A stretch of 64,000 nucleotides of DNA, taken from NCBI RefSeq assembly GCF_900101165.1, contig NZ_FNFK01000003.1, positions 1 through 64,000 of the forward strand, written 5' to 3'. Numbering within the stretch: the stretch's first letter is position 1; each line of letters begins with the position of its first letter. Below are positions 48,371-52,996 of the stretch, in pieces. Both the position numbers and the translations under genes were made by a program. The notes beneath the pieces were generated by a model that saw only the letters and a list, made by a program, of their open reading frames with translations, was not told where the DNA came from and ran no database searches. The DNA comes from Alkalibacterium thalassium. GTDB taxonomy: Bacteria; Bacillota; Bacilli; Lactobacillales; Carnobacteriaceae_A.

Positions 48371-48554
48371 ATCATTTGTGACGGATTTGTTACATTCATT
48401 TAGATTTTCAGTCAAAATTCATGCAGATTATTATTAATAAACTAGTTTGTTTGTTAGTCTATATATTGTAATGAGCTATTAAATTTTAGCTCAAGATAAT
48501 TAATCGAAGAATTTCAACTGATAAACTAAACTATAAACTAGGTGAGTGTTAATT
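48371..48554 (+). other. Gap before spxH with an inverted repeat
   Basis: This 184-base gap holds no gene. GAGCTA (48473-48478) and TAGCTC (48487-48492) form an inverted repeat, not followed by T, so not a terminator. Promoter elements are AT-rich and ambiguous. Confidence 0.4.
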
Positions 48555-49175
48555 ATGTTTTTAAACAATATTATTGAAGTATTCTTGTTCGTTAATCCAT
48601 TAGGAAGGACGTGCTATGAATCCGAAAAACTTGTTGAAGCTTTCTCTGCTGAACGAGACGAAAAAGTTAAAGTACGTTTTGTTCCCATTCTAAATATCCG
48701 CTCTATCGGTAATCTGGTAAAGGGAAATTATGACTCTTCTCTTTCCAATCGAAATCAGCTCTATACTGATTCCTACAATGCCAGCCTGGCATTTCAGGCC
48801 GCTTCAATGCAGGGCAGAAAAAAAGGTAGAAAATTCTTTATGAAACTACAGCAGTCTGTCATCAAAGATGGTAGTGCCGTAACAAGAGAGCTGATGCTAC
48901 AAATTGCTGAAGCATTGAATTTGGATATCGAGATGTTTGAAGAAGATCTGGAATCGGAGCTTTCAAGAACAGCATTCAATAAAGACCAGAAACTCGCGCT
49001 TGAAATGGGAGTGACTGAATCTCCTTCTTGTGTAGTGTATTCGCCTAAAGATACTACTTCTGGTTACCGTATCGATTCTTCTATAACGAAACAGCTACTT
49101 CACGGCTTGTGCAATGACCAGGCAGAAAAAAACGACCAGGCAGTGACTCATCTTTCTCTTTATCAGACCGTTTAA
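48555..49175 (+). CDS. spxH: ClpXP adaptor protein SpxH (YjbH family)
   Basis: SpxH/YjbH binds Spx and speeds its degradation by ClpXP. The DsbA-like thioredoxin fold is suggested by the start F-L-F-V-N-P-L-G-R-T-C-Y-E-S-E; compared with Bacillus YjbH, which has a cysteine pair and a His-rich start, only one cysteine remains at this place. The central K-V-R-F-V-P-I-L-N and C-terminal G-V-T-E-S-P-S-C-V-V-Y segments fit the family. GTG at 48546 touches AGGTGAG, so the ATG at 48555 is preferred (206 residues). It shares the locus with spx, mecA and pepF. Confidence 0.85.
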   Translation: MFLNNIIEVFLFVNPLGRTCYESEKLVEAFSAERDEKVKVRFVPILNIRSIGNLVKGNYDSSLSNRNQLYTDSYNASLAFQAASMQGRKKGRKFFMKLQQSVIKDGSAVTRELMLQIAEALNLDIEMFEEDLESELSRTAFNKDQKLALEMGVTESPSCVVYSPKDTTSGYRIDSSITKQLLHGLCNDQAEKNDQAVTHLSLYQTV

Positions 49176-49268
49176 TTTCTGAAAGTTGATAAATCGAGTA
49201 GGAGGTAAATAATTAATTTATTTACCGTCCTCTCACACCACCGTACGTACGGTTCCGTATACGGCGGT

Positions 49269-50657
49269 TCAATATCTTAAGTAAGCAGACTCTGCCAGTT
49301 GGTTTAGTGAAACTAAACCCCACTGGTAGAGTCTTTTCGTTGTAAGTGCCCGATGAACCTCGGGCGTTTTGGATAATCGCCAATATTTCTTGCGTGAAAA
49401 ACCAATACGTTTAGCACTATCTATATCTAGACCTAAACGTTCTAATCTGTTAATCTTGGTTCGTATCTTTTTCCATCGCTTAAGAACAAGTTGTCTGATT
49501 CTGTGATGTAGCCATTGTTCGACCTCGCGGACGAACGTCTTAATAAACCCTAAACCAAAGTAATTAATCCACCCTCGAGTGACTTCATTGATGTCCTTAG
49601 AAATCTCTTTGAAAGTTCCTGGACGGTTTCGTTTGGTTAAGCGTCTTAATTTGCCTATGAATTTCTTCTTGGCGGCTTTGGTAGGTCTGAATCGACAGAC
49701 CCCATTCACTTTCATCATCAGACAACCCAAGAACTTTAAACGAAAGGGTGACCCCACTTCGCTTTTGTCTTGGTTGACCGTTAGTTTTAAGTCTTTTTCT
49801 ATGAAGCGGGTGATACTGTTTAAGACCCGTTCACCCGCTCGTTTCGATTTAACAAAGATGACAAAGTCATCCGCAAAACGAACAAAGCGGTGCCCGCGTT
49901 TCTCCATTTCTTTATCCAGTTCATGCAAGTAAACATTACAGAGAAGGGGCGAGATAACGCCACCTTGAGGTGCGCCTGTTTCACTTTCTACGAATTCGCC
50001 AGACAGGTCTGTTACACCACTCCGTAAGAACTTGCGGATAATTCTCAGAATAAGTTTGTCCTGTATATATTGCTCTAAGTAGTACATGAGCTTGTCATGA
50101 TTGAGGGTGTCAAAACACCGTTTCAAATCACAATCTACCACAACAGGATACCCTTCTTCATAATATTTGACGCTTTGTTTTAGAGCAGAATGATTGCTTT
50201 TTCCTTTTCGGAAACCATGGCTGTGGGGGGAGAAATTTGGGTCAATTATCGGTTCAATAATCTGCTTAATCGCTTGTTGTACCACTCGGTCACGTGCGAC
50301 CGGGATGCCCAACTCTCTTTTTCCTCCATTAGCTTTAGGTATGTCTACCCGTTTAACGGATTGGGGTTTGTAGCTCCCATCAAGTAGTTTCCTTCTAATA
50401 TGAGGGTAAAATTTTTCAATGTGAGCTTCTACTTCTTGTACAGTCATTCCGTCTACACCTGGGGCACCTTTATTTTGTCTTACTTTCTTGGCTGCCACCA
50501 GTAAATTTTTCTTGCTTACAACGAGACTCATAAGAGACTCACCATACTTGTCTTTATGTTCACCTAGGCGATTACTTTGCGCACCTACATATCCTTTCGC
50601 TTCCAGCTTATCTTTTTGTAGTCTGCCAACCGTTCGGTTGTTTTCTGCATTCGTCAT
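49269..50657 (-). CDS. ltrA: Group II intron reverse transcriptase/maturase
   Basis: The intron-encoded protein supports splicing and mobility. The reverse-transcriptase domain spans about residues 45-310, with G-A-P-G-V-D-G (about 66), Y-K-P-Q-S-V-K-R-V-D-I-P-K (about 97), H-G-F-R-K-G-K-S (about 150), D-L-K-R-C-F-D (about 176) and the catalytic R-F-A-D-D-F (about 262; Phe instead of the common Tyr before A-D-D). The maturase X domain follows (G-W-I-N-Y-F near 368). No HNH endonuclease is present, as in IIC introns. The length of 462 and AGGAGG before the ATG suggest an intact gene. Confidence 0.95.
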   Translation of the reverse strand: MTNAENNRTVGRLQKDKLEAKGYVGAQSNRLGEHKDKYGESLMSLVVSKKNLLVAAKKVRQNKGAPGVDGMTVQEVEAHIEKFYPHIRRKLLDGSYKPQSVKRVDIPKANGGKRELGIPVARDRVVQQAIKQIIEPIIDPNFSPHSHGFRKGKSNHSALKQSVKYYEEGYPVVVDCDLKRCFDTLNHDKLMYYLEQYIQDKLILRIIRKFLRSGVTDLSGEFVESETGAPQGGVISPLLCNVYLHELDKEMEKRGHRFVRFADDFVIFVKSKRAGERVLNSITRFIEKDLKLTVNQDKSEVGSPFRLKFLGCLMMKVNGVCRFRPTKAAKKKFIGKLRRLTKRNRPGTFKEISKDINEVTRGWINYFGLGFIKTFVREVEQWLHHRIRQLVLKRWKKIRTKINRLERLGLDIDSAKRIGFSRKKYWRLSKTPEVHRALTTKRLYQWGLVSLNQLAESAYLRY

Positions 50658-51044
50658 AACGCCTAACCTCCTATCTGTTTAAGTATTAATATCGTTCGGT
50701 CCTTCGGTACATTTTCCCTACTACGACCTCGGCTGACTTCTCGCCATTCGTTGTTACTACTAAGCGCTGACGAGACCTCCCCGGGTAAGAACGACAACCT
50801 TCTGCTCATGTCACTGCTTCATTTACTCAATAGAATTCGGACAGTATCGGACTTCACTTTGTTATGCAAGCTTATCCGTTCTATCAAGCCTTAGTATGAA
50901 GTTTCTGTTCGTCAGTGCAAGCATTTGCGTCCATCTTCCTTCAGATTCCGCCTCACGGCGGACACCCTTGACTTTCGCTAACAGTTCCTACTGCCAAGTC
51001 TGTAGTGGACTTTCACCACCAAGTTGTCGCCCATGCCGGGAGCA
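50658..51044 (-). ncRNA. Domains I-III of the group II intron RNA
   Basis: The 390 bases between intron 5' end and maturase start have no gene. On the minus strand they contain repeated hairpins and the typical bacterial group II sequence around the GGTGGTGAAAGTCC and GGCAGTAGGAACTG blocks, which form the catalytic scaffold. Confidence 0.8.
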
Positions 51045-51051
51045 CATACAC

Positions 51052-51086
51052 AAAGGACCCCCTTTTCGTAAAGGAGGTCCTTTTTA
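51052..51086. terminator. Hairpin of the pepF/spxH terminator, interrupted by the intron
   Basis: AAAGGACC pairs with GGTCCTTT with a further CCTTT/AAAGG stem. On the minus strand the intron begins directly after TCCTTT, where the T-run should continue; on the plus strand five T remain. Confidence 0.88.
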
Positions 51087-51178: not shown

Positions 51179-52996
51179 TTATCCTTCTATTGCTTCAAGA
51201 GCTTTTTCCAGTTCATTTAGTCTGTCTTCGAATACTTTCATGGCTCTTAACAGATAGTCACTATCAGTCATATCTACTCCAGCTTTTTTCATTACCTCTA
51301 TCGGGAAGTCTGAACTGCCGGCTTTAAGATAAGTCAGATATTTATCGAGAGCGCCCTCTTCATTGTTGAGCAGTTTGTCCGCTAATGCAGTTGCCGCACA
51401 GAAACCAGTTGAATACTGGTATACGTAATAATTGTAGTAGAAATGTGGGATACGTGCCCATTCATACTGTATTTCGTCATCTTTTTCAACAGCTTCGCCA
51501 TAATATTTGCTGTTGATTGCACGGTAGTTCTCGCTAAGAAAATCTGCTGTCAGAGGAACTCCTTTAGAAGCTTCTTCATGCATGAAATGTTCAAATTCTG
51601 CAAACTGAGTCTGACGGAAGACCGTCCCTTTAAACCCGTCAAGGTAATGGCTGAGTACATAAGCTCGAGCTTTAGGGTCTTCTGTCGTTTTCAACAGATG
51701 ATCCGTCAGCAAGTTCTCATTTGTGGTAGATGCAATCTCCGCAAGAAAAATTGAGTAGTTCCCATATACATGAGGCTGATTATTCCGCGTAAAGTAACTG
51801 TGCGCACTGTGACCCAACTCATGAACCAGTGTATATAAATGGTTCAGAGAATCATGCCAGTTTAAAAGGATGTACGGATTCGTATCATAAGCTCCAGATG
51901 AATACGCACCGCTTCGTTTCCCTTTATTCTCGACTACATCTATCCAGCTGTCATTAAAGGCTTTGTCAAGGACACCTTTATACTCTGCGCCCAGAACTTC
52001 CAGCCCTTCATATGTTTTGTCTTTCGCTTCATCGTAGTTATATTTCAGGCTTGCTTCACCAGTTATAGGCGTATAGAGATCATACATGTGAAGGTCATCC
52101 AGTTTAAGCACCTTCTTGCGAAGCGCCATATATCTGTGAAGCAGTGGAAGATGGTCATTTACTACATCGATCAGTGTATCATGAACAGCTTCAGGAATAT
52201 GGTTGTTCGACAGAGCGTTCTCTCTTGCGGAAGAATAATTGTGAACCTTCGCCTGATAGTTATGATGCTTGACTGTAGATGCCAAAGTGCTGGCGAAAGT
52301 ATTCTTGAAGCTTGAATAGACACTGTACATTTTCTCAAATGCTTCTTTTCTGACATGTCGATCGGTACTTTCCATCAATTCTCCAAACATACCATGAGAC
52401 AGCTGAACATCTTCTCCCTGATCGTTTGTAACCTTTGGAAACTGAAGATCTGCATTGTTCAGCACACTGAATGTCTGTGTAGATGAGTTCAGCACCTCAC
52501 TTGCACCTGCAAGTAACGCTTCCATTTCAGAAGATAGAACGTGCGCTTTGTTAGCAGTCATCTGATCAACATAATGCTTATACACTTTCAGTTTCACTTC
52601 TTCTTCGAAATAGCCGTCAAGCGTCTCTTCAGACAGTTCAATGACTTCAGGTTCGAACCAGGATGATGCTTCTTGAGTCTGCGCAATCAGGTACCTGGCC
52701 TTGTCATTCATAGCCTGATACTTGCTGTTGGCAGTATCCTGATCGTTTTTCAAATGAGCATATACATAGATAGAACTGACTTTTCTTGATAAGTCAAGCA
52801 TGGACTGGAGAGCATCAAGAAATGGTACAGCTCCATCTTCGAGAGTCCCCTGCAGTTCTTTTATCTCACCTATCTTTTCCTGAGTTGACTTAAAATCCTC
52901 TTCCCATTTCTCATCATTTTCAAATATTACTGACAGATCCCATGTTAATTCCTTAGGTACTTCTTCTCTTAAAGGTAGTGATTTGACCTCTGACAT
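51179..52996 (-). CDS. pepF: Oligoendopeptidase F
   Basis: PepF is a cytoplasmic M3 metallopeptidase that cleaves oligopeptides of about 7 to 17 residues. The zinc motif H-E-L-G-H-S-A-H-S lies near residue 390, and the downstream glutamate ligand region E-I-A-S-T-T-N-E near 418. The length of 605 is standard. A TCAGGAGGGAA ribosome binding site precedes the ATG. It follows coiA in the spx-mecA-coiA-pepF order. Its terminator is split by the group II intron. A perfect TTGATTA/TAATCAA inverted repeat lies 50 bases upstream, in the promoter area. Confidence 0.97.
   Translation of the reverse strand: MSEVKSLPLREEVPKELTWDLSVIFENDEKWEEDFKSTQEKIGEIKELQGTLEDGAVPFLDALQSMLDLSRKVSSIYVYAHLKNDQDTANSKYQAMNDKARYLIAQTQEASSWFEPEVIELSEETLDGYFEEEVKLKVYKHYVDQMTANKAHVLSSEMEALLAGASEVLNSSTQTFSVLNNADLQFPKVTNDQGEDVQLSHGMFGELMESTDRHVRKEAFEKMYSVYSSFKNTFASTLASTVKHHNYQAKVHNYSSARENALSNNHIPEAVHDTLIDVVNDHLPLLHRYMALRKKVLKLDDLHMYDLYTPITGEASLKYNYDEAKDKTYEGLEVLGAEYKGVLDKAFNDSWIDVVENKGKRSGAYSSGAYDTNPYILLNWHDSLNHLYTLVHELGHSAHSYFTRNNQPHVYGNYSIFLAEIASTTNENLLTDHLLKTTEDPKARAYVLSHYLDGFKGTVFRQTQFAEFEHFMHEEASKGVPLTADFLSENYRAINSKYYGEAVEKDDEIQYEWARIPHFYYNYYVYQYSTGFCAATALADKLLNNEEGALDKYLTYLKAGSSDFPIEVMKKAGVDMTDSDYLLRAMKVFEDRLNELEKALEAIEG

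Follow-up and report, generated by a model that had tools for sequence, protein, structure and literature searches.

A terminator-resident group IIC intron in Alkalibacterium thalassium and the variable three-base EBS1 of its family

The element lying behind pepF in the window, that is the whole 64,000-nt stretch of contig NZ_FNFK01000003.1 of Alkalibacterium thalassium that was analysed, belongs, with a probability of about 0.92, to the mobile introns of group IIC (bacterial class C), finding its target through a hairpin together with EBS1-IBS1 pairing and being retargeted by changes of EBS1. The features of the locus are the following.

49193..51045, minus strand: group IIC intron, 5'-GTGCT...CTCGAT-3', 1,853 nt (Rfam matches and borders from aligned copies)
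51179..52996, minus strand: pepF (oligoendopeptidase F; TIGR00181, 645 bits), in whose terminator the intron sits
51046..51086, minus strand: 5' exon, consisting of the pepF terminator hairpin and the 6-nt tail GTGTAT (folding)
51083-51052, minus strand: hairpin stem, 14 bp (folding)
51050, minus strand: T at exon position -5
51048-51046, minus strand: IBS1, TAT (register from covariation)
50863..50865, minus strand: EBS1 triplet AUA in a domain I loop, intron nucleotides 181-183 (mutual-information scan)
49269..50657, minus strand: intron-encoded reverse transcriptase/maturase, 462 aa, with RT and domain X
49193..49269, minus strand: domains V and VI (RF00029 match)
49199, minus strand: putative bulged branch-point A (placed by eye from the pairing of domain VI)
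49188..49192, minus strand: 3' exon TTATC, with the T at +1 as IBS3
48546..49175, plus strand: convergent gene of the DsbA/Thioredoxin_5 family (Pfam PF13743), which we take to be yjbH-like

The Rfam covariance models matched domain I (RF02001, 50962-50790 minus, 153.4 bits), a D1-D4 segment (50766-50699 minus), and D5-D6 (RF00029, 49269-49193 minus, 49.3 bits), the last over the whole length of the model. RF02001, RF01998, and RF00029 were all above the cut-off, so the conserved D1 core, D5, and D6 are present, and the 3' end CTCGAT is an AY 3' end of group II type. The original prediction of a group II intron of class IIC on the minus strand, for which covariance-model search and folding had been proposed as checks, is borne out by RF02001, RF00029, and the hairpin context, with folding returning a strong 14-bp hairpin behind pepF. 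The maturase had been expected to be intact, with 462 residues, to lack an HNH domain, and to carry F-A-D-D in place of Y-A-D-D. Accordingly, it is encoded by one open reading frame of 462 codons with no internal stop; at E 0.001 its Pfam domains are RVT_1 and GIIM, neither HNH nor any other Pfam domain being found at this threshold; and its active site reads RFADD. The latter is a minority state in the family: the motif pattern could be recognised in 75 of the 160 copies, 69 of them with RYADD and six with RFADD. The closest solved protein is the GsI-IIC reverse transcriptase (E 3.5e-105), with LtrA behind it (8.6e-40). On the basis of this best match and of the lack of an En domain, the maturase appears to be a member of class C.

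The pepF hairpin is stable both as RNA (fold of -24.8 kcal/mol, z -3.1) and as DNA (-12.7, z -5.9), and it is among the four sites flagged by a simple terminator scan (1.5 in shuffles). In the closest relative (G007, PepF 93% identical), the same pepF-yjbH locus is present without the intron, and the joined flanks of the window align across the junction with the terminator tail unbroken; this is the empty site with an uninterrupted terminator that had been named as a check. Ten of the 11 relatives of the genus could be read 3' of pepF, and all of them lack the intron and have a yjbH-like gene within about 150 nt, while the sequence of the eleventh ends 47 nt past pepF. The hairpin is also trailed by T5 on the plus strand, so it probably also terminated the convergent yjbH-like gene, and we regard it as probably a shared, bidirectional terminator of the two genes. 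The intron now stands between this gene and the hairpin. The insertion may have shifted the terminator of the yjbH-like gene 1.85 kb away, leaving the intron antisense in the transcript of this gene.

Regarding the borders, the last exon bases are TCCTTTGTGTAT, and GTGCT at 51045 opens the intron. The start had been placed at 51051 (GTGTATG), exactly behind the hairpin. On the alignment of copies we reject this and move the border 6 nt downstream, with GTGTAT belonging to the exon: all seven other 5' ends of the same genome start with GTGCG at the base corresponding to 51045, not 51051, and a GTGCG or GTGTG start is found in 155 of the 160 aligned family copies. Counted from 51045, the intron is 1,853 nt long, and the sister introns L030, L031, and L033 are 1,852 nt. 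Furthermore, the EBS1 triplet AUA pairs at three of three positions with TAT as IBS1. The intron could still start at the base of the stem by way of an alternative 5' splice site, as GTGTA resembles GUGYG and alternative 5' splicing has been reported for a IIC intron (Toor 2006). Besides the seven copies beginning at the other base, what speaks against it is that TTT fits EBS1 AUA at only two of three positions and that IBS1 would fall within the stem, whereas the solved IIC target has a spacer (PMC10190682); we consider it extremely improbable. At the other end, the predicted border CTCGAT/TTATC at 49193 stands, since all ten 3' ends of the genome stop at CTCGAT, with T as the next base in nine of them. 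In the family, a pattern recognised the 3' end of 54 copies, and the base at +1 is T in 53 of them; not every one of the 54 is full-length, since in four the two ends are under 1,300 nt apart. The joined exons read TTTGTGTATTTATC; the expected restoration of a T-run by joining therefore holds in that the site is T-rich, but the run is interrupted.

The same genome carries eight distinct 5' ends and ten distinct 3' ends of the family, including those of the window; the other seven 5' halves and nine 3' halves lie on contigs ending within the intron. Searched with Rfam, the genome gave eight 5' and nine 3' matches, again with the window's included and with one 3' match below the cut-off, and the tenth 3' end is a 45-nt piece on C14. 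These copies have different flanks and occupy several different sites, and two ends are nearly or fully identical to the window copy (C58, 99% over 319 nt; C68, 100% over 91 nt). The presence of such recent copies at new sites is what a mobile retroelement would leave behind. A second IIC subfamily was also observed in this genome (L014, L015, and L016, with maturase ends L025-L027), in which the maturase C-terminus is only 48-49% identical and D6 differs.

The window copy is the only one among the 160 with a GTGCT 5' end, and its RNA would begin with GUGCU in place of the GUGYG of group II introns. This does not overturn its group II membership, because the deviation is a single point change in a copy that shares 99% of 319 nt with the canonical C58, but it questions the activity of this copy. 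Its exon has G at -4, where 114 of 152 copies have T; it fits its own site in that AUA pairs with TAT and T stands at -5. The suggestion that the element could still be mobile thus applies to the family, whose copies lie at several sites of the genome, and is less certain for the window copy because of its unique GUGCU; the family is probably mobile and this copy possibly impaired. A stronger version treats the window copy as the relic of an earlier insertion that has lost splicing and movement, both of which only its sisters would retain. Loss of G5 would be expected to hurt splicing, and the G5-to-U change is found in this copy only. Its reading frame of 462 codons is nevertheless intact, its D5-D6 matches the whole model, and C58 and C68 are near-identical to it over the lengths given, so its decay would have hardly begun. 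We consider the relic a real possibility, at somewhat less than even odds.

Then, we evaluated target choice across the family. After removal of duplicates and of hits starting past model position 8, 195 nhmmer hits gave 160 distinct copies; leaving out one without 12 nt upstream and seven diverging or interrupted before EBS1, 152 copies, unique by sequence and carrying 41 genome labels, were available for pairing analysis. All matches were searched in 24 genomes and in 12 of the genus, and the other genomes among the 395 of the order contributed at most two copies each; the collected copies are part of the places listed, and copy counts are therefore to be read as "at least". Labels L030, L031, and L033 were merged with G009, G007, and G011, being the same genomes, which reduced a set of one row per genome and triplet from 59 to 58 rows.

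Insertion behind a hairpin is the rule in the family. Of 160 copies, 159 had enough upstream sequence for folding, and a hairpin with a minimum free energy of -12 kcal/mol or lower within 45 nt upstream was found in 152 of these 159, compared with 104 of 1,590 shuffles. Together with the uninterrupted terminator in the relative, this substantiates the proposal that terminators are the target. A first criterion (2-14 nt between stem and intron, minimum free energy of -7 or lower; 129/159 copies, 250/795 shuffles) was replaced because A-T extension of the stem put many hairpins at a distance of 0-1. Among exon bases -1 to -14, the most constant is T at -5 (132/152), which would fit the requirement for T-5 that reportedly emerged from work on GsI-IIC.

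The domain I loop GCTTGC-NNN-AC contains a variable triplet, with 22 different triplets in the 152 copies. When the columns of domain I were scanned for mutual information, the top partners of exon positions -1, -2, and -3 were intron positions 181, 182, and 183 (0.72, 0.63, and 0.63 bits; next column at most 0.25). Pairing between this triplet and exon -1 to -3 is fully Watson-Crick in 110 of 152 copies (5,000 shuffles: mean 16.0, maximum 30), or in 123 when G-U is allowed (mean 24.3, maximum 40, 5,000 shuffles). The shuffles leave some relatedness among copies, which is addressed by reduced sets: with each combination of genome and triplet represented by a single row, 34 of 58 pair fully (shuffled mean 4.5, maximum 12), and 52 of 71 do so in the 16 genomes of at most 10 contigs (mean 10.4, maximum 20). 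In the A. thalassium genome alone, the value is 5/8 (mean 1.6, maximum 5, 2,000 shuffles), or 7/8 with G-U. Exon -4 to -6 showed no covariation in the 152 copies, as EBS positions 4-6 are nearly invariant, with A at position 4 in all copies but one (151 of 152). The T-run itself was discarded as the object of EBS1 recognition, since IBS1 may be GCG, TAG, CAT, or GTT, among others. The solved IIC complex pairs its loop with exon -1 to -4 in the cryo-EM structure (PMC10190682), with which the covariation register agrees, the correspondence of the loops being our reading. The recognition thus appears to consist of a short EBS1-IBS1 pairing and a single EBS3-IBS3 pair, as in class C; EBS3 could not be located in the family copies because +1 hardly varies.

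The remaining 29 of 152 copies fail the three-position pairing even with G-U. Nine of them lack a near relative, and 17 have near relatives with the same triplet only, which indicates that insertion is not strictly tied to a match, as expected of relaxed insertion. The other three (L179 of G019, L005, and L213) sit at sites misfitted by their own EBS1 and fitted by that of a near relative. These are candidate snapshots of retargeting, and such cases would arise from an EBS1 mutation in the course of insertion or later.

EBS1 also changes fast. The likelihood rates of its three positions rank 1, 2, and 4 of 262 (90 unique sequences). Nine copies from two genera, which match one another without substitutions or gaps at the remaining 259 positions, carry four triplets: three are from A. 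thalassium (GAA, CAA, and GGA, all at sites ending TTC) and six from another genus (TAA, at sites ending TTA). With respect to diversity-generating retroelements, whose marks are a template/variable repeat pair and adenine-specific mutagenesis, the observation is that T, G, and C are all seen at EBS1 position 1 of copies that do not differ elsewhere. Several triplets of the A. thalassium genome lie near contig ends. The per-site excess of differences at EBS1 was 45-fold in pairs differing by at most 1% elsewhere (371 pairs), 26-fold at 3% (514), and 16-fold at 6% (1,249), values inflated by the choice of pairs with few differences elsewhere and by their non-independence. In the pairs of at most 1%, differences fall mainly at position 181 (86 pairs), followed by 190 (66) and 182 (16); position 190, which is outside EBS1, thus differs nearly as often as 181. 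A quick tree built without the EBS1 columns, with 39 of 84 inner branches weakly supported, requires at least 42 triplet changes, a count made without a shuffled control.

The speed could be apparent only, if different lineages invaded different genomes and the covariation reflected shared ancestry in place of retargeting. Coherently with this, in many genomes all copies share one triplet, and the 371 near-identical pairs are not independent. It is hard to reconcile with the nine copies from two genera that carry GAA, CAA, GGA, and TAA despite agreeing at the remaining 259 positions, with the triplet changes on the masked tree despite its weak branches, and with the covariation signal surviving in the reduced sets. 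Shared ancestry as the sole cause was thus rejected on the set of one row per genome and triplet, the genomes of at most 10 contigs, and the EBS1-masked tree, and we judge the explanation very improbable. Retargeting by EBS1 change is the preferred reading, presumably with ordinary mutation and selection as the driver. That EBS1 is diversified by biased or dedicated mutation, such as error-prone reverse transcription at the loop, seems improbable to us; if true, it would give a IIC intron a self-reprogramming three-base address. As a separate observation, the contigs of all 12 copies fetched from G003 (L100, L104, L108, L110, L112, L113, and L115-L120) run out after 185 nt of intron sequence, just past EBS1, where an assembler might break if the copies differ.

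On these grounds, the family, found across the order, appears to have been recently active in this Alkalibacterium-like genome. Its RNP would recognise the terminator hairpin, a short T-rich spacer, the three exon bases pairing with EBS1, and the T at +1, and would reverse-splice into a single DNA strand at the -1/+1 junction; with no endonuclease, reverse transcription would probably be primed from a strand of the replication fork. The window copy would have landed 6 nt beyond the predicted pepF stem, where TAT fits AUA, and the lineage would reach new sets of terminators through changes of the EBS1 triplet.

Insertion behind intrinsic terminators is a well-established property of class C introns (PMC4424553, PMC8919778), which the present family shares. 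B.h.I1 of Bacillus halodurans is among the examples and was, like others of the class, reportedly described in such a position by Robart in 2007. With GsI-IIC and the Eubacterium rectale IIC introns the family has in common the hairpin-targeting class C type and an En-minus RT/maturase, and with the E. rectale structure the recognition by a stem, a short EBS1-IBS1, and EBS3(A)-T+1 (PMC10190682). It differs from E. rectale in EBS1 position 4, where nearly all copies have A and E. rectale has G, and from both in the 22 triplets at EBS1 1-3 of the collected copies and in the FADD and GUGCU of the window copy. The divergence of EBS towards new sites is likewise established for the IIB1 introns of Thermosynechococcus elongatus, which occur in high copy number and six families, and in which diverged EBS and insertion at matching IBS avoid saturation of target sites (Mohr 2010, PMC2882425). 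Many copies and EBS divergence to matching sites are common to both cases; however, the T. elongatus introns are IIB, use EBS1, EBS2, and EBS3, and are in one genome, whereas here three exon bases behind a terminator hairpin are recognised in many genomes.

The family is thus ordinary IIC in kind and a clear case of hairpin anchoring combined with a fast-changing three-base address. What is added is scale and precision in IIC introns: three bases, 22 codes, and positions among the fastest measured. In literature judged mostly by titles and abstracts we found no account of EBS1 hypervariability in IIC introns, and novelty is not claimed. One terminator-resident intron becomes a data set on target choice and its change in minimal group II retroelements, in which the hairpin gives the place and three bases, holding three of the four fastest positions of 262 nt, give the address. 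This suggests a compact, reprogrammable target code, and serial retargeting as a mode of spread of IIC introns becomes testable.

Some copies of the family have rearranged surroundings. In L032 (about 673-2225; G002:C59), an IS110-family element (DEDD_Tnp_IS110) lies in domain I of a IIC copy, right after GAATCTGAAG, and a similar, diverged sequence breaks a second intron copy, L109 (G002:C71), at this base too; no second IS110 transposase like that of L032 was found in G002 at E 1e-60. Head-to-tail tandem introns occur in L196, L198, L200, L126, and L194 (G386) and in L034, with the 3' end CTCGAT of one directly preceding the start of the next; at the junction, L034 (CTCGATGTGCG) retains G1, whereas the copies of G386 (CTCGATTGCGC) lack it or have another base there. 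Finally, matches to the first 256 nt of the intron, with 60-90% identity, occur in 411 plasmid records, and in 34 of these the match spans at least 80% of the 256 nt (best 84%, Aerococcus and Staphylococcus simulans), and the wider intron family thus appears to ride plasmids as well.
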